Shown: in pieces, positions 4,539-62,917 of the stretch | Numbering within the stretch: position 1 is the first letter of the stretch | How the letters are laid out: each line of letters begins with the position of its first letter | Assembly (NCBI GenBank): GCA_036946405.1 | Contig: JAQIJC010000001.1 | Location: 937,001 to 1,001,000 of the forward strand | Direction of reading: 5' to 3' | Source: Sphingomonas phyllosphaerae | Lineage (GTDB): Bacteria > Pseudomonadota > Alphaproteobacteria > Sphingomonadales > Sphingomonadaceae | Length of the DNA stretch: 64,000 bases | Program-made: the position numbers and the translations under genes | Notes under the pieces: generated by a model | The model's database searches: none | Told to the model about the DNA's origin: nothing | What the model saw: the letters and a program-made list of their open reading frames with translations, nothing else

Positions 4539-5020
4539 GCACGCGGGTGCGGCTGATCGAGCTGGCGCCGGGCGGCGCGGCGGATGCCGAGGTGGTCGAT
4601 CGGATCATGCTCGCCGCCTTCGACCCGCGTTATGGCGAGGCGTGGACGCGGAGCCAGTGTATCGGCATCCTCGCCATGCCCGGTGTCTGGCTGACACTGG
4701 CGCGCGTCGACGACACGGTGGTCGGCTTCGCTTTGGTCCGCGCGATCATGGACGAGGCCGAATTGCTGCTGATCGCGGTCGACCCGCCCGCACGCCGCAG
4801 CGGCGTCGGTGCGGCGTTGCTGCGCGGGGTGATCGCCGAATGCGAGGGGCGCGGGGTGGCGAAGCTGCATCTGGAGGTGCGCGCCAACAACCCGGCGGTC
4901 GCGCTCTACGCCGCGCATGGCTTCCGTCACGCCGGGGTACGTCGCAACTATTATCGCGGGCGCGACGGACAGGCGTTCGACGCGCACACCTACGCCCGCG
5001 CGCTCGAAATTCATCGATAA
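4535..5020 (+). CDS. rimI: Ribosomal protein S18-alanine N-acetyltransferase RimI
   Basis: 161 residues. A GNAT fold is visible: the acetyl-CoA loop PPARRSGVGAALLRGVI (R/Q-x-x-G-x-G/A), then LEVRANNPAVALYAAHGF and a terminal RRNYY, the RimI signature. The enzyme acetylates the N-terminal alanine of S18. The start overlaps the tsaB stop, the usual tsaB-rimI coupling, which supports RimI rather than a generic GNAT. Confidence 0.9.
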   Translation: MSTRVRLIELAPGGAADAEVVDRIMLAAFDPRYGEAWTRSQCIGILAMPGVWLTLARVDDTVVGFALVRAIMDEAELLLIAVDPPARRSGVGAALLRGVIAECEGRGVAKLHLEVRANNPAVALYAAHGFRHAGVRRNYYRGRDGQAFDAHTYARALEIHR

Positions 5021-5027
5021 TCGCCTT

Positions 5028-5053
5028 TTGCGAGTCGGTAGCGCTTTTCGCAA
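5028..5053. promoter_or_regulatory. Inverted repeat upstream of fur (candidate operator)
   Basis: TTGCGA at 5028-5033 and TCGCAA at 5048-5053 form a perfect six-base inverted repeat with a 14-base spacer, 17 bases before the fur start. The position suits an autoregulatory site, but the spacing is wide for a classic Fur box, and the assignment is inference only. Confidence 0.3.
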
Positions 5054-5070
5054 CAAGCGCGATCCATTAC

Positions 5071-5499
5071 ATGGCGATCATGGCTCGCAAGATCGATCTC
5101 GAAGCGCTGTGTCACGAAAAGGGCCTGCGTATCACCGAACAGCGTCGCGTCATCGCGCGCGTTCTGTCGGAGGCGGAAGACCATCCTGACGTGGAAAAGG
5201 TCTATGCGCGCGCCTCCGCGATCGACCCCGGCATCTCGATCGCCACCGTCTATCGCACCGTGCGGCTGTTCGAAGAGGCGGGCATCCTCGACCGCCACGA
5301 TTTCGGCGACGGCCGCGCGCGCTACGAACCGTCGCCGGAGGCTCATCACGACCATCTGATCGATGTCGAGACCGGCAAGGTGATCGAATTCGTCGATCCC
5401 GAACTCGAGCTGCTGCAAAAGGCGATCGCCGAGCGGCTCGGCTTCCGGCTCGTCGACCATCGCATGGAATTGTACGGCGTCGCGCTCCGCAGGGACTGA
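5071..5499 (+). CDS. Fur family transcriptional regulator
   Basis: 142 residues from ATG 5071 (MAIMARKID); the second ATG at 5080 is equally plausible. The winged helix (GLRITEQRRVIARVLSEAED, then ISIATVYRTVRLFEEAGIL) is followed by the metal-sensing region AHHDHLIDVETGKVIEF. The CxxC pairs that bind structural zinc in E. coli Fur are absent, as in many alphaproteobacterial Fur/Mur proteins, so it may sense iron or manganese. It lies between rimI and plsC with a 50-base leader carrying an inverted repeat. Confidence 0.9.
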   Translation: MAIMARKIDLEALCHEKGLRITEQRRVIARVLSEAEDHPDVEKVYARASAIDPGISIATVYRTVRLFEEAGILDRHDFGDGRARYEPSPEAHHDHLIDVETGKVIEFVDPELELLQKAIAERLGFRLVDHRMELYGVALRRD

Positions 5500-5500
5500 G

Positions 5501-6214
5501 GTGCGGCTCAACGCGCGCGGCTGGGCGCGGCTCGTCGCGCTCGCGGCGGCGCTGGTCGTCGCGCTGCTGTTGCACGGCACGTGGCGGCTGTTCCGGTTGC
5601 GCTCGCCGTGGCCGCGACGCTTTCTCGGCTGGGTGGCACGGATCGTCGGGGCGCAGGTGCGCGTCATCGGTACACCGCTGCGCCGCGACGCGGTATTGCT
5701 TGCTAATCACGTCACCTGGATCGACATCCTCGCGATGGCCGGGGCGAGCGGTGCCGCGTTCGTTGCCAAGGCCGAGTTGCGCGACGCGCCGCTGGTCGGC
5801 TGGCTGTGCACGCTCAACAACACCTTGTTCGTCCGCCGTGGTGATCGGATGGGGATCGACGCACAGGTCGCCGCGCTCCGCGACCAGCTCGCCGGCCCGC
5901 AGCCAGTGGCGATCTTCCCCGAGGGCACGACCGGCGATGGCGTGACGTTGGGGCCGTTCAAGGCCGGTCTGCTCGCCGCGCTCGCCCCGCCGCCGCCCGG
6001 CGTGCGCGTTCAGCCGGTGCGGATTGACTATGGAGAAGCCACCCCAGACGTGGCGTGGGTCGGCGCCGAAGACGGTGCGCGCCACGCGAAGCGCGTCCTC
6101 AACCGCCGCGGCACGTTCGTGGCGACGCTGCACTTCCTCACGCCCTTCGTCCCCGAAGGCGACCGCAAGACGATCGCCGCCGCGGCGCGTGCGCAGATCG
6201 AGGCGGCGGCGTAA
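5501..6214 (+). CDS. plsC: 1-acyl-sn-glycerol-3-phosphate acyltransferase (PlsC family)
   Basis: 237 residues from a GTG one base after the fur stop. An N-terminal membrane helix (residues 9-25) precedes the acyltransferase motifs: NHVTWID (NHx4D, catalytic His-Asp), the conserved NTLFVRR, and FPEGTT (glycerol-phosphate binding). The family acylates lysophosphatidic acid at the inner face of the cytoplasmic membrane. The tight spacing to fur suggests co-transcription. A role on another lysolipid, such as an ornithine lipid, cannot be excluded. Confidence 0.88.
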   Translation: MRLNARGWARLVALAAALVVALLLHGTWRLFRLRSPWPRRFLGWVARIVGAQVRVIGTPLRRDAVLLANHVTWIDILAMAGASGAAFVAKAELRDAPLVGWLCTLNNTLFVRRGDRMGIDAQVAALRDQLAGPQPVAIFPEGTTGDGVTLGPFKAGLLAALAPPPPGVRVQPVRIDYGEATPDVAWVGAEDGARHAKRVLNRRGTFVATLHFLTPFVPEGDRKTIAAAARAQIEAAA

Positions 6215-6216
6215 GG

Positions 6217-6639
6217 GTGCGGTCCGTGCTGGTTGCGACCTTCGCGCTCGCTGCCTGCTCGCGTGACGACAGTGTCGAGCGACGCGCGCGGCTCGGGCCG
6301 AACCCGACCCTCGCGCACTATATGCAGGTCGCGGATGCGCAGGCCGGCGCGCGCCGCTTCGGGCAATGCGCCGCCTGTCACTCGATCGCGGCCGGCGGTG
6401 CGGATCGCAACGGCCCGAACCTGCACGGCGTCTATGGCGCGCCGATCGCGCAGAACCGCCCGCGCTTCGGCTATACCGACGCCTTGCAGGCGCAGCGCGG
6501 CGTGTGGGACGACCAGCGACTCGACGCGTGGCTCGCCGACCCGCGCGCCACCGTGCCCGGCACGACGATGACCTTTGCCGGGGTCCGCGATCCGCTCGCG
6601 CGCGCCGACCTGATCGCCTATCTCAAGGCCCAGCGCTGA
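6217..6639 (+). CDS. Lipoprotein c-type cytochrome
   Basis: 140 residues from a GTG two bases after the plsC stop. A short signal with lipobox LAAC (Cys at about 14) predicts a lipid-anchored periplasmic protein. The single haem motif CAACH is at 51-55, the conserved GPNLHGVYG follows, and a methionine in GTTMTF (about 118) is the likely sixth ligand, as in mitochondrial-type cytochrome c2. It probably carries electrons at the membrane surface. Its place between plsC and miaB has no obvious functional link. Confidence 0.87.
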   Translation: MRSVLVATFALAACSRDDSVERRARLGPNPTLAHYMQVADAQAGARRFGQCAACHSIAAGGADRNGPNLHGVYGAPIAQNRPRFGYTDALQAQRGVWDDQRLDAWLADPRATVPGTTMTFAGVRDPLARADLIAYLKAQR

Positions 6640-8252: not shown

Positions 8253-9251
8253 ATGAGCCGTAAACCCGTCCCCGCCCAGACGGGCGAACGTTCGCGCGTC
8301 GAGGTCGTCTTCGACCGCCCGCAACTGCTGAGCCGGCTGTTCGGCCAGTATGACCAGCATCTGGTGGCGCTGGAGAATCGGCTGGGGGTCTATATCACCG
8401 CGCGCGGCAATCGCGTCGGGCTGGAGGGGACCGCCGAGCAGGTGGCGCTGGCGCGCGACGTGCTCCACGATCTTTATGCGCGGATCCAGCGCGGCGAGGA
8501 GGTCGATACCGGCCTCGTCGACGCATCGATCGCCATGGCGGCCGAGCCGGTGCTCGACGGGATCATCTCCGCCGAGCGCAGTCCGACGCCGTCGGTGATG
8601 ATCCGCACGCGCAAGAAGACGATCGTCCCGCGCACGCCCGCGCAGGCGCATTACATGCGCGAGCTGACCACGCACGACATGATCTTCGCGCTCGGCCCGG
8701 CGGGCACCGGCAAGACCTATATCGCGGTCGCGCAGGCGGTCGCGCAGCTGATCTCGGGCAGCGTCCAGCGGCTGATCCTGTCGCGCCCGGCGGTCGAGGC
8801 GGGTGAGCGGCTCGGCTTCCTCCCCGGCGACATGAAAGAGAAGGTCGATCCCTATCTCCGCCCGCTCTACGACGCGCTGTACGATTGCCTGCCTGCCGAG
8901 CAGGTCGAGCGGCGGATCGCGTCGGGGGAGATCGAGATCGCCCCGATCGCCTTCATGCGCGGCCGGACGTTGGGCGACGCGTTCGTGATCCTCGACGAGG
9001 CGCAGAACACCACTCCGGCGCAGATGAAGATGTTCCTGACCCGCTTCGGGCAGAACAGTCGGATGGTGATCTGCGGCGATCCCAACCAGACCGACCTGCC
9101 TGGCGGCGTCGGCGCCAGCGGCCTGGCCGATGCGACGACGCGTCTGGAGGGGGTGGAGGGTATCTCGCTGTGCCGCTTCACCGCCGCCGACGTCGTCCGT
9201 CATCCGATCGTCGGGCGGATCGTGGAGGCGTATGAGGGGGTGTCTGGTTGA
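8253..9251 (+). CDS. PhoH family ATPase (YbeZ type)
   Basis: 332 residues; ATG at 8253 is preceded by AGGAG. Residues 1-110 form the KH-like N-terminal region of the YbeZ subgroup. The P-loop GPAGTGKT is at about 148-155 and the Walker B/DEAQN box reads VILDEAQNTTPAQMKM. YbeZ-type PhoH proteins act with YbeY in rRNA processing. The usual direct phoH-ybeY junction is interrupted here by the vapBC pair. Confidence 0.94.
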   Translation: MSRKPVPAQTGERSRVEVVFDRPQLLSRLFGQYDQHLVALENRLGVYITARGNRVGLEGTAEQVALARDVLHDLYARIQRGEEVDTGLVDASIAMAAEPVLDGIISAERSPTPSVMIRTRKKTIVPRTPAQAHYMRELTTHDMIFALGPAGTGKTYIAVAQAVAQLISGSVQRLILSRPAVEAGERLGFLPGDMKEKVDPYLRPLYDALYDCLPAEQVERRIASGEIEIAPIAFMRGRTLGDAFVILDEAQNTTPAQMKMFLTRFGQNSRMVICGDPNQTDLPGGVGASGLADATTRLEGVEGISLCRFTAADVVRHPIVGRIVEAYEGVSG

Positions 9252-9299: not shown

Positions 9300-9548
9300 A
9301 TGGCGTCTCTGTACATCAAGGATGAGGAGGCGAACGTGCTGGCGGCACGGCTCGCCGAGCGACGTGGCATCTCCAAGACGATGGCCGTGAAGCTGGCTCT
9401 CCAGCATGAACTGGCACGCGACGATGTTCATGTCCCGTTGCGCGAACGTCTGGCGGCGTGGCGCAAGACCCTTCCGTCCGGCAAGCGTACCGGGCTGTCG
9501 GCGGACAAGGCGTTTTACGATTCGCTCAGTGACGAGGACATGGATTGA
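9300..9548 (+). CDS. vapB: VapB-type antitoxin (PSK_trans_fac/Rv0623-like)
   Basis: 82 residues; GGAGG lies six bases upstream of the ATG. MASLYIKDEEANVLAARLAE followed by RGISKTMAVKLALQHEL is the short DNA-binding N-terminus of this VapB subgroup; the acidic tail (SLSDEDMD) would wrap the toxin. It neutralises the VapC RNase downstream and represses the operon as a complex. The toxin start overlaps its stop. Located between phoH and ybeY, which suggests later acquisition. Confidence 0.87.
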   Translation: MASLYIKDEEANVLAARLAERRGISKTMAVKLALQHELARDDVHVPLRERLAAWRKTLPSGKRTGLSADKAFYDSLSDEDMD

Positions 9549-9943
9549 CCATCTTCGTCGACGCCTCCGCCATCGTCGCGATCATCGACGGCGAAGCGGA
9601 GGCGGACGCCTTCTCGGACGCGATCGAGGCACATAATGATCGTTGCTATTGCGCGGTCGGGGCGTGGGAAGCCGCGCACGCGATCGCCCGTTTGTGGGGG
9701 ATCGACCTTCCCGAGGCCGGCGCCGTCATCGCCGAGTTCGCCCATCAGACCGGATTGCGGCTGGTGACGATCGGCGTGTCCGAGGGTCGCGCCGCGATCG
9801 ACGCCGCCGCGCGGTACGGCAAGCTGTCGAAACACCCCGCCAAATTGAACATGGCCGATTGCTTCGCCTATGCCTGCGCGAAAGCAAACGGCGCGAGTCT
9901 GCTCTACAAAGGCAACGACTTCTCCCACACGGACTTCGGCTGA
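9545..9943 (+). CDS. vapC: VapC-type PIN-domain ribonuclease toxin
   Basis: 132 residues from a TTG start that overlaps the vapB stop (TTGA). The PIN acidic residues are visible: D in MTIFVDASAIVAI, E in GAWEAAHAI, and D in LNMADCFAYACAKA, followed by the usual LLYKGNDFSHTD ending. VapC toxins are Mg-dependent RNases that cut tRNA or rRNA. The residues look intact, so an active pair is expected. Confidence 0.88.
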   Translation: MTIFVDASAIVAIIDGEAEADAFSDAIEAHNDRCYCAVGAWEAAHAIARLWGIDLPEAGAVIAEFAHQTGLRLVTIGVSEGRAAIDAAARYGKLSKHPAKLNMADCFAYACAKANGASLLYKGNDFSHTDFG

Positions 9944-9944
9944 C

Positions 9945-10454
9945 ATGATCCACATCGAACTCACCCGCGAAGAACCGTGGCCCGACACCGACTGGGACGC
10001 CCGCGCGCTCGCCGCCGCCCGCGCCGCGATCGCGCGGACGCCGTATGGCGAGCTCATCACCACGCCTGCGCATGTCGAGATCAGCGTCCGCCTCGCCGCC
10101 GACGAGGAGGTGCAGGGACTCAACCGCCAGTACCGGCAGAAGGACAAGCCGACCAACGTCCTGTCCTTCCCGATGGTCCAGCCCGACCTGATCGACACCG
10201 TCAGCCAGAACAGCGACGATGGCGAGGTGCTGCTCGGCGACATCGTCCTCGCGCACGGCGTCTGCGAACGCGAGGCGGCGGAGCGGAACATTACGGCGGC
10301 GGATCATTTCACGCATCTGGTGGTGCATGGCTGCCTGCATCTGCTAGGCTATGACCATATGACCGACGACGAGGGCGACGCCATGGAGCAGATCGAGCGC
10401 GATGCCCTTGCCGATCTGGGCATCGCCGACCCCTATCTGATTCGCGAGGATTGA
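9945..10454 (+). CDS. ybeY: Endoribonuclease YbeY
   Basis: 169 residues from the ATG at 9945, directly after vapC. The zinc motif HGCLHLLGYDH (HGxxHxxGyDH) is intact, and the upstream RQKDKPTNVLSFP block is typical. YbeY matures the 16S rRNA 3' end and takes part in ribosome quality control. It belongs to the phoH-ybeY-CBS string, interrupted upstream by vapBC. Confidence 0.95.
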   Translation: MIHIELTREEPWPDTDWDARALAAARAAIARTPYGELITTPAHVEISVRLAADEEVQGLNRQYRQKDKPTNVLSFPMVQPDLIDTVSQNSDDGEVLLGDIVLAHGVCEREAAERNITAADHFTHLVVHGCLHLLGYDHMTDDEGDAMEQIERDALADLGIADPYLIRED

Positions 10455-10465
10455 ACACCACGGCC

Positions 10466-11380
<915 letters not shown>

Positions 11381-59387: not shown

Positions 59388-60446
59388 TTACGACGACAGC
59401 CCGACGCGCAGCGCGGCGTTGGGGTTGTTCGTCCCGTTCGGGAAGAATCCGCCGCCGGTACGGTTCGCGCCGGTCGCGTTCAGATACACGATATTGTGCA
59501 CCTGCTCGCTGCTGCGGCTATAGGCGATGCCGTTGACGTTGGCCGGGACCAGATTGGCGGCGTTGCCGTTGCTGGCGTCCACCAGCCCCTGATCGTCGTC
59601 CGCGCCGATCCCGCGCGTGGTGTCATCGGTCGGCTTGCCGTCCAGCAGGTCGCGCGCATCGGAGATCTTCGTCGTCGCGGTGATGAGCGCGTCGGTCGAC
59701 ATGCCCTTGGCATAGAGGACGGTGCGCACGATCCCGGCGTGATACGCCTCCGCGGCAAGGATGCCCGCCGCCGCTTCCAGATAGGTTTTGTTCGTCAGCA
59801 GCGGCGCCGCGCCCTTGTACGCGGTGACCCCGACGTCCTCGAACAGGAATGCACCAAGCAGGAAGTTTTCAGGTGACGAATAGGGATTGAACGTATCGCT
59901 CGATCCGATCACGCCCGCCGCGCGCGCCGCTACGGTGAAGGCGCCGTTCGCGCCGCCGTCGATGTTGATGTTCGGCATCGCCACCGCCGCCGACCCAAGC
60001 GCTGCACGCAGGAAGGCGACGTGCGCCGCTTCGTCCGCGGCGATCTCGCGCGCATAGGCGCCCACCATCGGATCGCCGGAGAAGTCGACCTTCGCCCCGC
60101 CGGTCACGGTGCCGCCGGCGGTGCCGCCGCCGCTGGCGGTCTGCGTTGCGGACAGACCGGTCCCGTTGACCGCGTACAGATAGAATTGCGCCTCGAGATA
60201 TTCGAGGTTGAGCGCGAGGTTCAGCACGTCGCTGTCGGTGATCGCGGTCGGGGTGGGCGTCGGGGTAGGGGAGGGCGTCGGCGTCGGGTCGACCGTATCG
60301 CCGTAATCGCCGTAGCACCCCGACAGCAGCGAAGCGCCACCCAATAGCACCGCGCCGCCACCAGCGGCCTTGAGGAAGCCGCGCCGGGCGGCACGCCGCG
60401 CATCGGCGGCGGACAGGATTTCGAGAGCCTTGAACGGGTCGATCAT
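59388..60446 (-). CDS. Ferritin-like protein, Tat-exported lipoprotein (paralogue 1)
   Basis: 352 residues; AAGGAA precedes the ATG at 60446. The N-terminus carries a twin-arginine pattern (RRGFLKAAG) ending in a lipobox (LLSGC), followed by a PTPTPSPTPTP spacer. The ferritin-like domain holds di-iron-type ligands: LNLEYLEAQFYLYA, AADEAAHVAFLRAA, FLFEDVGVTAYKGA and AAEAYHAGIVRTVL. The closest family type is Ferritin_2/desiccation-related protein. Role, possibly iron or peroxide handling in the envelope, is inferred. Paralogue next door. Confidence 0.85.
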   Translation of the reverse strand: MIDPFKALEILSAADARRAARRGFLKAAGGGAVLLGGASLLSGCYGDYGDTVDPTPTPSPTPTPTPTAITDSDVLNLALNLEYLEAQFYLYAVNGTGLSATQTASGGGTAGGTVTGGAKVDFSGDPMVGAYAREIAADEAAHVAFLRAALGSAAVAMPNINIDGGANGAFTVAARAAGVIGSSDTFNPYSSPENFLLGAFLFEDVGVTAYKGAAPLLTNKTYLEAAAGILAAEAYHAGIVRTVLYAKGMSTDALITATTKISDARDLLDGKPTDDTTRGIGADDDQGLVDASNGNAANLVPANVNGIAYSRSSEQVHNIVYLNATGANRTGGGFFPNGTNNPNAALRVGLSS

Positions 60447-60499
60447 GGAAAATTCCTTCGGAGCGTCAGGGAAACATCATCGGAAGCGCACGTCGGCGC

Positions 60500-61489
60500 T
60501 CAGGTCGTCGACTTGATGTTTCCGTTGACGCCGTTGGGGAAGAAGCCGCCCATCGTCGCCGTGCCGGGGTTGAGATAGACGATGTTGAGCACCTGTCCCG
60601 GCGTGCGGCTGAAGGCGAGCCCGTTGCTGTTGAGCGGGGACAGATTGGCGGTCAGCGTGTCGCCGCTGCCAGACGGCGCGATCCCCTGATCGTCGTTCGG
60701 CGCGATGCCGCGCACCTTGTCCTCGGTCGGCGCGCCGTCCAGCGAGTCGCGCGCGGCGGCGATCTTCTCGGTCGCGTCGATCAGCCCCTGCACACCCTTC
60801 GAATAGAGCGTCGTGCGGACGATCGCGGCATGATACGCCTCGACCGCGAGGATGCCTGCGGCGGCCTCCAGGAAGGTCTTGTTGCTCAGCAATGGCGCCG
60901 CACCCTTATAGGCGGTCACCCCGACATCCTCGAAAATGAACGCGCCGAGCAGGAAGTCGGTTGGCGAGGCATAGGGATTGAAGGCGCCCGACGTGATCAC
61001 CCCGGCCGCAAGCGCGGCGGCGGTGAACGGCCCGTCGGCCGCGCCGCTGATATTGATGTTCGGCATCGCCACCGCCGCCGTGCCGAGCGCGGTGCGCAGG
61101 AACTTGACGTGCGCCAGCTCGTCGGCGGCGATCTCGCGCGCATAGGCGCCGACCAGTGGATCGGTGGTGAAGTCCACCTGCGCACCGCCGGTCACCGTGC
61201 CGCCGGCCGTGTTGCCGCCGCTCGCGGTCAGGTCGCTGGTCAGTCCGGTGCCGTTGGCCGCGTAGAGATAGAATTGCGCCTCGAGATATTCGAGATTGAG
61301 CGCGAAGTTCAGCACGTCGCTGTCGGTGACGCTGGTCTGCGCCAGTGCCGGATCGGCATAGGCGAACGCCCCGCCGACGGCGGCGACCCCCAGTGCAGCG
61401 GTGAAGAAGGCACGGCGGTTTTCCCGGCGGCGCGCACGGCCGTCGAAGGTTTCGATCAACAGATCCTGCTCGGTTCGGGCGTCTTGCAT
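60500..61489 (-). CDS. Ferritin-like protein, Tat-exported (paralogue 2)
   Basis: 329 residues from ATG 61489. Twin-arginine signal (RRENRRAFFTAALG) and an ALAQ end suggest Tat export with cleavage near residue 50; no lipobox. The domain repeats paralogue 1 almost motif for motif: LNLEYLEAQFYLYAANGTGL, AADELAHVKFLRTA, FIFEDVGVTAYKGA, AVEAYHAAIVRTTL, and the same Gly-rich loop GGTVTGGAQVDF. The C-terminal part (FFPNGVNGNI) is also shared. Divergent from the ECF sigma gene. Confidence 0.85.
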   Translation of the reverse strand: MQDARTEQDLLIETFDGRARRRENRRAFFTAALGVAAVGGAFAYADPALAQTSVTDSDVLNFALNLEYLEAQFYLYAANGTGLTSDLTASGGNTAGGTVTGGAQVDFTTDPLVGAYAREIAADELAHVKFLRTALGTAAVAMPNINISGAADGPFTAAALAAGVITSGAFNPYASPTDFLLGAFIFEDVGVTAYKGAAPLLSNKTFLEAAAGILAVEAYHAAIVRTTLYSKGVQGLIDATEKIAAARDSLDGAPTEDKVRGIAPNDDQGIAPSGSGDTLTANLSPLNSNGLAFSRTPGQVLNIVYLNPGTATMGGFFPNGVNGNIKSTT

Positions 61490-61585
61490 CGTCACTTCGC
61501 ACCTCCCACAACCCACGGGAATGACACGAAGCATCTTCCTCGACGTGGGTGAATGCAGCTACGAGACGAGTTCGGGATAGGATGC

Positions 61586-61621
61586 GGGATCGTTAAAAAA
61601 ACAATTTCAGCGGGCGATCCC
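61586..61621. promoter_or_regulatory. Inverted repeat in the sigma-gene leader
   Basis: GGGATCG (61586-61592) and CGATCCC (61615-61621) flank an AT-rich centre (TTAAAAAAACAATTTCAG) ahead of the sigma start at 61639. It could be a regulator site between the divergent genes, or a hairpin in the sigma leader. Confidence 0.3.
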
Positions 61622-61638
61622 GCCAGCGGAGTGAAGCG

Positions 61639-62223
61639 GTGACGGCAACCGACACACAGACGGCGGACGCGCGAAGAGCGACGCTCGTCGCCGCGTTGAC
61701 GATGAGCGCGGATGGAGACCGGCAGGCGTTTCGACGCGTGTACGACCTGACTGCCGCGAAGCTTTACGGCATCTGCCTGCGTATCTGTGGCGAGCGGCAG
61801 GCCGCGGAGGACGTGTTGCAGGAGGTATATCTGATCGTCTGGCGCCGCGCCGCCGCCTATCGGCCGGAGCGCAGCCATCCGGTGACGTGGCTGGCGACGA
61901 TCGCGCGCAACCGCGCGCTCGACTGGCGACGCTCGCCGCGCGGCCGCGCCTTCGCGCCGATCCCGACCGACGATGCGCACGAATCGGTCGATGACGCGCT
62001 GCCGGCGGATCAGGCGATGGTCGCCATCGAGGACGGGCAGCGGCTCGATCTCTGCCTGGAGGAACTCGACGAGCGGCCGCGCCACGCGATCCGGTCGGCA
62101 TTCCTCGACGGGCTCACCTATGCCGATGTCGCCGGGCGCGCGGGCGTTCCGCTGCCGACGATGAAGAGCATCATCCGTCGTGCGTTGATCCGTCTGCGGG
62201 AGTGTCTGAACGATGACGCCTGA
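61639..62223 (+). CDS. ECF-type RNA polymerase sigma factor
   Basis: 194 residues from GTG 61639 with GGAGTGAAG upstream. Sigma-2 region: GDRQAFRRVYDLTAAKLYGI, AAEDVLQEVYLIVWRRAAAY, VTWLATIARNRALDWRR; sigma-4: PRHAIRSAFLDGLTYADVAG and VPLPTMKSIIRRALIRLREC. The type is near SigK/SigL-like ECFs that go with RskA anti-sigma factors. The next gene overlaps its stop. The adjacent divergent ferritin-like genes are candidate targets. Confidence 0.92.
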   Translation: MTATDTQTADARRATLVAALTMSADGDRQAFRRVYDLTAAKLYGICLRICGERQAAEDVLQEVYLIVWRRAAAYRPERSHPVTWLATIARNRALDWRRSPRGRAFAPIPTDDAHESVDDALPADQAMVAIEDGQRLDLCLEELDERPRHAIRSAFLDGLTYADVAGRAGVPLPTMKSIIRRALIRLRECLNDDA

Positions 62224-62917
62224 CGATCGCATTCTGGCGGCCGAGCTGGTGATCGGCCTGCTCGCGGAGGAAGAGGCCGCCGCGGCGGAAGCGCGGCGGG
62301 CGCAGGATGCCGATTTCGCCGCCGAGGTCGACTGGTGGGAAACCCGCTTCGCGCCGCTGTTCGATCACTATCCCGAGGTCGCGCCGCCGCCCCAGCTCGC
62401 GGCGCGGATCGAGGCGATGCTGGGGCTGCCGCACGTCGCGGGACGTACGAAGCGCGTGCACTGGCGCTCGCTCGCGTTCGGCGCGACCGGTGGCGCGCTC
62501 GCCGCGTCGCTCGCCGCATGGCTGCTCACCCCCGCCACCGTGACGCCGCCCGCGCCGCCGGTGACGGTGCCGGCGGCGCCGGCGAAGCTGATGATCGCGC
62601 AGCTGGCGTGGACCGACAAGACGAAGACGCCTGCCCCGGTCGCGATCGTCGAAGCGACGACCGGGTCGGTGCGGTTGAGCCGCGCCGTCGACACGCCCGC
62701 CGGTCGCGACGGACAATTGTGGCGGATTCCGGCGGGCGGCAAGCCGATCCCGCTCGGCTTGCTGCCGCGTGGCGACGGGCGTGAGGTGCGCGTCGCGCTC
62801 GCCAACCTGCCGGTGGCAGGCAGCACGCTGGCGATCTCGATCGAGCCGCTCGGCGGGTCGCCGACCGGGCAACCGACCGGACCGGTGGTGCTGGCCGGGA
62901 CGGTGGAGCGTTTGTGA
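62213..62917 (+). CDS. RskA-type anti-sigma factor
   Basis: 234 residues overlapping the sigma gene by 11 bases. The N-terminal LAAELVIGLLAEEEAAAAEA is the sigma-binding part; a single membrane helix (SLAFGATGGALAASLAAWLL, about 86-105) precedes a periplasmic RskA domain with LVRIP-like text (GQLWRIPAGGKPIPLGLLPR). It would hold the sigma factor at the membrane until an envelope signal. No zinc-binding HxxxCxxC is present. Confidence 0.9.
   Translation: MTPDDRILAAELVIGLLAEEEAAAAEARRAQDADFAAEVDWWETRFAPLFDHYPEVAPPPQLAARIEAMLGLPHVAGRTKRVHWRSLAFGATGGALAASLAAWLLTPATVTPPAPPVTVPAAPAKLMIAQLAWTDKTKTPAPVAIVEATTGSVRLSRAVDTPAGRDGQLWRIPAGGKPIPLGLLPRGDGREVRVALANLPVAGSTLAISIEPLGGSPTGQPTGPVVLAGTVERL

Follow-up and report, generated by a model that had tools for sequence, protein, structure and literature searches.

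An operon for two exported dinuclear-metal proteins under the probable control of a SigK-type sigma/anti-sigma switch in Sphingomonas phyllosphaerae

In a stretch of 64,000 nucleotides from Sphingomonas phyllosphaerae (assembly GCA_036946405.1, contig JAQIJC010000001.1, positions 937,001 to 1,001,000, forward strand), which we call the window, two genes for exported proteins of the Ferritin_2 family, FER2 and FER1, lie divergently to a gene pair for an extracytoplasmic function (ECF) sigma factor, SIG, and a membrane anti-sigma factor, ANT. The features of this locus are listed in window coordinates, with Tat standing for twin-arginine translocation.

59388-60446, minus strand: FER2, 352 amino acids; Tat lipoprotein with a PT-rich tether, a Ferritin_2 domain and a conserved C-terminal region (GGFFPNG)
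60500-61489, minus strand: FER1, 329 amino acids; soluble Tat-exported Ferritin_2 protein with the C-terminal region
61557-61585, minus strand: FER operon promoter, predicted to be of SigK type; -35 element GCATCC (61580-61585), N16, -10 element CGTAGCT (61557-61563)
61639-62223, plus strand: SIG, SigK-like ECF sigma factor; GTG start; sigma-70 regions 2 and 4 (Pfam)
62213-62917, plus strand: ANT, RskA-type membrane anti-sigma factor; RskA_C (Pfam) with E 3.1e-17, over the cut-off

FER2 and FER1 have the same orientation and are separated by 53 nucleotides, while the SIG and ANT genes overlap by 11 nucleotides. Both FER proteins match the Pfam family Ferritin_2 (PF13668) above its cut-off of 24.7 bits (FER2 148.9 bits, E 1.3e-43; FER1 153.1 bits, E 6.6e-45) and begin with twin-arginine (RR) signals, NRRAFF in FER2 and ARRGFLK in FER1. 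The signal of FER1 ends in AxA, and that of FER2 ends in the lipobox LSGC, after which a PT-rich linker follows. As expected of Tat substrates, each protein combines a twin-arginine motif with a hydrophobic stretch, and a Tat system is present in the window's genome, here called G000 (about 3.8 Mb), which encodes TatC (E 3.0e-71) and also an M50 protease. These results confirm the preliminary description of the window, which had reported twin Tat-exported Ferritin_2 paralogues, one a lipoprotein with a PT-rich spacer and the other soluble, facing an ECF sigma/RskA pair. Six Ferritin_2 genes are found in G000, forming three tandem pairs. Among the matches listed, from which records of the window's own genome are possibly omitted, the closest named relative of FER1 is that of Sphingomonas phyllosphaerae FA2 (92%), a strain that carries this locus too (L110).

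The pairing of the two genes is conserved far outside the window. Two FER genes are present in 49 of 54 loci of the genus, among which four are from G000; three further loci contain four FER genes, one a single gene and one only a fragment, so that one or two tandem pairs occur in 52 of the 54. Of 79 named loci, picked by likeness to FER1 as the best matches among those listed, 71 hold two FER genes, two hold four and six hold one (two Comamonas, Roseateles, Paracidovorax, Subtercola and one Sphingomonas metagenome-assembled genome); tandem pairs are present in 73 of 79. Three named loci scored as convergent, but two of them, L153 and L179, prove divergent when over-extended frames are taken into account. 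The RR motif is kept in all 111 aligned FER proteins. By pattern, 54 of 55 first genes are of the soluble type with a signal ending in AxA, and 52 of 55 second genes carry a lipobox, the remaining three (VGC, SAC and EGC) being lipoprotein-like by eye; the lipobox usually precedes acidic residues and a P/T-rich stretch. The twins thus stand in a fixed order, soluble protein first and lipoprotein second. The module is real and conserved, and its gene arrangement is beyond chance.

The same metal ligand pattern had been described for the two proteins, and the dinuclear-metal ligand set E, ExxH, E, ExxH is indeed complete in both paralogues. Residues E67, E70, E124, H127, E187, E217 and H220 of FER1 are invariant in 48 of 48 aligned near relatives, as are E82, E85, E139, H142, E203, E233 and H236 of FER2 in 35 of 35. 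A glycine, Gly190 in FER1 and Gly206 in FER2, is likewise invariant, giving eight such positions in the 48 and 35 near relatives. Distant copies lack some of the ligands; in second genes the one corresponding to E187 is lost most often, with Glu kept in 39 of 55. Both proteins also share a C-terminal region with a near-invariant GGFFPxGxNG (window 60503-60796 for FER1, residues 232-329, and 59391-59705 for FER2), which is predicted with lower confidence in the structural models.

Among solved structures the top relative of SIG is Mycobacterium tuberculosis SigK (4nqw, E 2.6e-24), followed by RpoE (1.5e-19). The NCBIfam SigK model gives 139.5 bits for SIG, below its cut-off of 226, and because this cut-off is not reached we call the protein SigK-like rather than SigK. 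Cys139 and Cys189 of SIG align with Cys133 and Cys183 of SigK, in a numbering for which we take 17 extra chain residues to be subtracted and SigK to be 187 residues long. Both cysteines are present in all 31 aligned sigma proteins, the window's own counted, and a search of the ANT sequence for cysteine found none. According to the available part of PMC7509140, the SigK cysteines are required for activity, the oxidised disulfide stabilises the SigK-RskA complex and reduction frees SigK, whereas cleavage of RskA is stepwise, with no protease identified there for the first cleavage in M. tuberculosis. The same text describes mpt83-sigK-rskA as a minimal cassette that is found in Yersinia too, and MPT70 and MPT83 as products of a duplication, one secreted and one lipid-anchored. 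Redox sensing through Cys139 and Cys189 of SIG is on this analogy a fair prospect that falls a little short of an even chance.

In front of FER1, at a distance of 67 nucleotides, lies the box GCATCC-N16-CGTAGCT. When 47 non-redundant first genes are compared, CATC-N16/17-CGTA is the most frequent spaced pair of 4-mers in their upstream regions, found in 19 of them; in ten shuffles the commonest pairs were C/G-rich and reached 9 to 16. Of 56 FER upstream regions of 220 nucleotides, 22 contain a strict pattern of the box, which has 64 matches in all when both strands of 1.087 Mb are counted. The strict pattern GCATCY-N15/16-CGTAnCT is found twice in the whole of G000, upstream of FER1 and inside a hisI-like frame (named by eye), and the reversed control gives one match. 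GCATCC bears a likeness to the SigK promoter consensus, CCATCC...CCGAAT.

The same box also precedes another class of genes. Sixteen SIG loci lie away from FER (L091-L106), and in nine of them the box stands just after ANT and before a gene of about 185 amino acids, which encodes a fasciclin (Pfam Fasciclin E 4.1e-34 for the Sphingobium example). Altogether 12 of the 12 fasciclin upstream regions taken have the box, and a Sphingobium locus, L171, brings together SIG, ANT, a fasciclin gene and a FER pair. We built a weight matrix from 11 distinct fasciclin sites and ran it on the FER upstream regions, with a threshold of 12.58, the 99% point of 2661 control upstream regions; these controls precede open frames of at least 250 amino acids, many of which are not real genes. 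Near-identical upstream regions were omitted before the 4-mer and matrix counts, the weak fasciclin match of L182 (123 bits) was left out of both the fasciclin set and the matrix test, and FER copies without a readable RR.F or with less than 100 nucleotides upstream were left out of the matrix test.

The results show that the matrix passes 48 of 111 first (or only) FER genes as opposed to 0 of 88 second genes. Where the locus includes SIG, 24 of 31 first genes pass; elsewhere 24 of 80 do. Across the 64-kb window, the FER1 box has the best matrix score (22.3), the next being 16.4. The test is not fully independent, because the pattern by which the fasciclin sites were picked had first been seen at FER; how these sites were chosen does not affect the contrast of FER first genes to second genes, to sigma genes and to controls. 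A search for a promoter motif shared between the two divergent operons had been suggested, and of this the FER1 side stands, with its strong box, while the sigma side does not: 0 of 41 sigma gene upstream regions pass, so that no autoregulation of SIG through the FER box was found.

A search for fasciclin (PF02469) found no match in G000. Together with the observation that only the window's pair passes the matrix, G000 therefore seems to have one main target of SIG, the twin operon. In a tree of 55 sigma proteins, made by a quick method with several long branches and a midpoint root, sigma factors with FER and with fasciclin neighbours interleave, with 7 label changes for FER and 5 for fasciclin, of which well-supported branches force at least two and at least three, respectively. 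As an output of SigK type, the twin operon probably takes the place of fasciclin or is added to it.

We next turn to the linkage of SIG with FER across genomes. In 14 of 53 genus loci and 20 of 79 named loci, two sets that share some genomes, FER has a SIG homologue at a distance of no more than 3.5 kb. Such closeness would be above chance, because most SIG-bearing genomes of the genus hold one SIG. At the level of genomes, a passing pair is present in 22 of 25 genomes with SIG and in 0 of 4 without (Fisher p 0.0015); when counted without the four genomes whose best score is under 13, the figure is 18 of 25 (p 0.014). Within single genomes the box is found at unlinked FER and fasciclin loci: G022 (L073, L097), G031 (L081, L095) and G033 (L084, L098).

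The association extends to distant Alphaproteobacteria. In an even sample of the class comprising 144 genomes, Ferritin_2 scores over the cut-off in 12 genomes outside the genus, and in eight of these an ECF sigma gene lies within 3 kb (L209, L211, L212, L214, L216, L218, L219 and L221); the remaining four include some short contigs. Six of the eight neighbouring sigma factors are SigK-like and come with an anti-sigma part, while those of L211 (54 bits) and L219 (103 bits) are different and more weakly related. L107 of genome G042 is a seventh SigK-like case, which, like L036 of the same genome, comes from a separate sample outside the 144-genome counts. GCATCC or GCATCT precedes FER in all seven SigK-like cases; of the eight further loci, L208 and L219 show this too. 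Both SigK-type cysteines are read in all seven distant cases and not in L219; the Roseateles locus L179 has one by pattern. In the sigma tree, the sigma factors beside short Tat Ferritin_2 genes branch outside the sphingomonad group.

Several of our results weigh against control of FER by SIG. As many as 63 of the 111 FER first genes stay below the matrix threshold, the other two pairs of G000 score 5.4 and 1.8 against 12.58, some control upstream regions score as high as the maximum of 22.4, and the failure of every sigma gene upstream region belongs here as well. Nine of the 12 fasciclin genes were located via the box itself, the others (L158, L171 and L183) via the protein profile, and in 7 of the 16 SIG loci away from FER there is no fasciclin gene close by either. 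Counted by locus, the contrast weakens to 26 of 50 in genomes with SIG and 0 of 5 in those without (p 0.053), and the genomes without SIG are few (four), two of them 79-85% complete, with all genomes related to each other. In the genus, the co-occurrence of FER and ANT, tallied by hand, is weak (25 genomes with both, 4 with FER only, 5 with ANT only and 3 with neither; p 0.16). Among the seven distant SigK-like loci the matrix passes at FER in only three, because the -10 element varies, and L213 and L215, whose FER has no SIG nearby, pass as well.

Such observations would be expected if the sigma pair and the twin operon were mere neighbours and the box belonged to another regulator or were a relic of the lineage. 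SIG is out of reach in 39 of the 53 and 59 of the 79 fetched FER loci, pairs without a box are common, and the weak co-occurrence fits this explanation too. Against it, the box of SIG-adjacent fasciclin genes is found also at FER promoters, passing pairs are confined, among 29 genomes, to those with SIG, and the unlinked FER and fasciclin loci of three genomes carry the same box, and we regard mere neighbourhood as very improbable. As had been proposed from the gene arrangement, the twin operon is very probably an output of the neighbouring sigma factor, given the strong box before FER1.

The function of the twins was approached through predicted structures. The FER1 and FER2 models have a mean predicted local distance difference test score (pLDDT) of 79.7 and 73.2, and the best structural match of both is the tardigrade protein RvY_06210, RvFeMP-1 (8wai). 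FER1 matches it with Z 17.7 and FER2 with Z 17.0, in either case over 165 aligned residues at 2.2 Å, and the next proteins reach 13.9 and 12.7, respectively. An iron-storage ferritin as closest kin is disfavoured by the lead of RvFeMP-1 over the next protein, 3.8 Z for FER1 and 4.3 Z for FER2. By spacing, E124, H127, E187 and E217 of FER1 fit Glu90, His93, Glu132 and Asp162 of RvFeMP-1, with E67 on helix 1 like Glu51; this correspondence relies on spacing and on the description in the available part of PMC11616004, not on a residue-level structural alignment. FER1 E70 may be the extra helix-1 Glu reported for the Deinococcus radiodurans protein DRB0118.

The preliminary description had called Ferritin_2 proteins poorly characterised, which is overtaken by PMC11616004, a paper of 2024 whose available part presents a structure and also reports activity, the latter for two proteins from tardigrades and one from Deinococcus. 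RvFeMP-1 is described there as a metabolite phosphatase with a dinuclear site, which catalyses metal-dependent hydrolysis of sugar phosphates and of normal and damaged nucleotides. Phosphatase activity is also given for RvFeMP-2 and DRB0118, and inactivation of DRB0118 reduces desiccation survival, as the paper states citing earlier work.

Other results make a phosphatase role of the twins less secure. Foldseek alone ranks RvY_06210 first for FER1, at a weak E of 1.3e-3, the sequence profile search links FER1 and RvY_06210 only with E 0.41, and a sequence search of the PDB with FER1 alone found no relative. The position of Asp135, essential in RvFeMP-1, is by spacing Gly190 in FER1 and Gly206 in FER2, and because of this Gly we do not file the twins as RvFeMP-1-type enzymes; DRB0118, which has Gly there, is active. 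The FeMP activities are 1-2 orders of magnitude under those of known metabolite phosphatases, and the available text of PMC11616004 gives the true substrate as unidentified. Finally, a gene for a small c-type cytochrome is found next to the short Tat Ferritin_2 gene in L036 (1013-1405, minus strand), L219 (5793-6167, plus strand) and L221 (5110-5574, minus strand), with Pfam support for cytochrome c in L221 only. This neighbour hints at electron transfer in these genomes and would fit redox chemistry.

The cytochrome neighbours in these three distant genomes bear on an alternative that keeps the SigK-type regulation and gives the twins iron or peroxide work in the envelope, such as that of a ferroxidase, a Mn-catalase-like enzyme, a peroxidase or an iron scavenger. 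It would also agree with the full ligand set of all 48 and 35 near relatives and with the ferritins, bacterioferritins and Dps proteins that match the fold with Z up to 13.9. RvFeMP-1 is nevertheless the clearly better match of both models, and PMC11616004 describes phosphatase activity for the Ferritin_2 members that were assayed there, the available part of the paper containing no ferroxidase or peroxidase test. We consider the iron or peroxide alternative rather unlikely. Metal or peroxide handling, the output first proposed for this locus, is no longer the best guess, the closest solved fold being that of a metabolite phosphatase. Because both models match RvFeMP-1 clearly best, we favour an envelope phosphatase, and judging from the models the chance that FER1 and FER2 are phosphatases rather than agents of iron or peroxide chemistry is about even.

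A further alternative gives the twins a structural or protective part in the envelope during desiccation, or has them bind phosphate compounds but not turn them over. The split into a soluble and an anchored form, together with the fasciclin output, would then indicate a task in the surface matrix in place of catalysis. The fasciclin domain, which the same circuit has as its alternative output, is usually tied to adhesion. The strict twinning of a soluble protein and a lipoprotein recalls MPT70/MPT83, and the conserved C-terminal region GGFFPNG has no assigned role. Most copies of both paralogues keep the metal ligands, which a purely structural role would not need, and we judge this alternative improbable.

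Taken together, the regulatory link is well supported by the sequence and the enzymatic role is one that we infer; as a whole, we think it reasonably probable that the two exported dinuclear-metal proteins come from one operon under the control of a SigK-type sigma/anti-sigma switch. In the mechanism that we propose, ANT would hold SIG at the membrane until a signal, possibly redox on Cys139/Cys189 of SIG and/or stepwise proteolysis of ANT, as in the SigK-RskA literature, frees or activates SIG. RNA polymerase with SIG would then read GCATCC-N16-CGTAGCT before FER1, a sequence signal whose use by SIG is predicted. That ANT restrains SIG and that SIG reads the box we hold with high confidence. 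FER1 and FER2 would be expressed from a single operon, acquire their fold and their metal inside the cytoplasm and presumably leave via Tat. Very likely FER1 would then be free in the periplasm and FER2 lipid-anchored on its PT-rich tether. Both would hydrolyse phosphorylated or damaged metabolites in a metal-dependent manner under desiccation or oxidative stress, as their tardigrade and Deinococcus relatives do in vitro. The operon would be an alternative or additional output of the SigK-type circuit that drives fasciclin in other sphingomonads, and covering both the free periplasm and the membrane surface may, by analogy, be the purpose of the circuit.

Compared with known systems, the locus is a variant of the SigK-RskA kind and not a new kind. 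It resembles the SigK-RskA-MPT83/MPT70 cassette (ECF18/ECF19; M. tuberculosis, Yersinia enterocolitica) in a sigma factor nearest to SigK with both cysteines, an adjacent RskA-type anti-sigma factor, a box before the target and, as the available text of PMC7509140 describes for mycobacterial MPT70/MPT83, a target consisting of soluble and lipoprotein paralogues. It differs in that the target is a Tat-type dinuclear-metal Ferritin_2 pair instead of fasciclin, and in that SIG lies below the NCBI SigK cut-off. With RvFeMP-1/-2 and DRB0118 (PF13668), as far as PMC11616004 describes them in its available part, the twins share the fold, the dinuclear site and an export signal, and with DRB0118 also a Glu at the Glu132/Glu191 position, a Gly three residues on and a second helix-1 Glu. 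Unlike these proteins, the FER twins have twin genes, Tat signals, one lipid anchor, the GGFFPNG region and predicted SigK-type control.

The EcfG general stress response of Sphingomonas likewise involves an ECF sigma factor and stress-protection outputs in the same genus (PMC6599016, available part). EcfG, however, reads GGAAC-N17-20-GTT and uses NepR/PhyR (PMC6599016), whereas the window has the box GCATCY-N15/16-CGTAnCT and an RskA-like partner. Read by eye, the 150 nucleotides before FER1 contain no GGAAC, and regulation of FER by EcfG is rejected, as the box differs. The RpoE-ChrR system (ECF11) is similar in that RpoE is the second-best solved relative of SIG; it differs in that ANT matches RskA_C. 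A ChrR-type zinc site needs Cys, and ANT has no such site because it has no cysteine. A fasciclin gene, RSP_1409, is contained in a table of photooxidative-stress responses of Rhodobacter sphaeroides (PMC7074977, available part).

Among the matches listed in open-licence PMC, we recognised no literature that links Ferritin_2 with a SigK/RskA pair. With apparently one main target operon, an enzyme fold for which a solved relative and an assay exist, and a defined box, the signal of SigK-RskA systems and the reason for their secreted targets become testable. The circuit sits in plant-associated Sphingomonas and supplies a candidate bacterial regulator for Ferritin_2 proteins, recently recast as desiccation-linked phosphatases (PMC11616004, available part). 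Only tentatively, and as something we hold to be possible rather than probable, we propose that an exported Ferritin_2 enzyme is an ancient SigK-RskA output in Alphaproteobacteria, which sphingomonads expanded to a soluble/lipoprotein twin resembling MPT70/MPT83 and swapped with fasciclin under the same box, in a circuit for redox- or desiccation-triggered cleaning of envelope metabolites.

Some minor observations concern the sigma pair and its box in other genomes. In L209 (4270-5208, minus strand) and L216 (6020-6967, minus strand), a single frame encodes a SigK-like sigma factor, then an anti-sigma-like stretch and a terminal membrane helix, an apparent natural sigma/anti-sigma fusion beside a short Tat Ferritin_2 gene; the anti-sigma part was judged by eye, Pfam matching only the sigma part in L209. 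In the S. sanguinis group and its kin (L076, L120-L122, L124 and L129), a variant, GCGTCYTTTTT-N-CGTTK, stands at the place of the box and perhaps reflects a co-evolved sigma specificity.

A Crp-type regulator, with the box in front, lies divergent from the FER pair in L171 (8948-9700), L150 (8795-9646), L183 (1660-2406) and L174 (1-385), all on the minus strand, which suggests a sigma-to-Crp cascade at these loci; the assignment is by HTH_Crp_2 for L171 and by likeness for the other three. Beside SIG-ANT-fasciclin loci, the box also precedes a DUF3419 gene, a possible further target of the sigma factor, in L095 (box at 9186, gene 9374-10699, plus strand; DUF3419 by Pfam) and L097 (box at 6412, gene 4924-6330, minus strand). 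In G000 itself, the second and third twin pairs (L038 and L039) have neither box nor sigma pair close by, and an orphan fragment at C1:1550150-1550419 (L040, 6088-6438, plus strand) matches the C-terminal part of FER1 only, at 34%.

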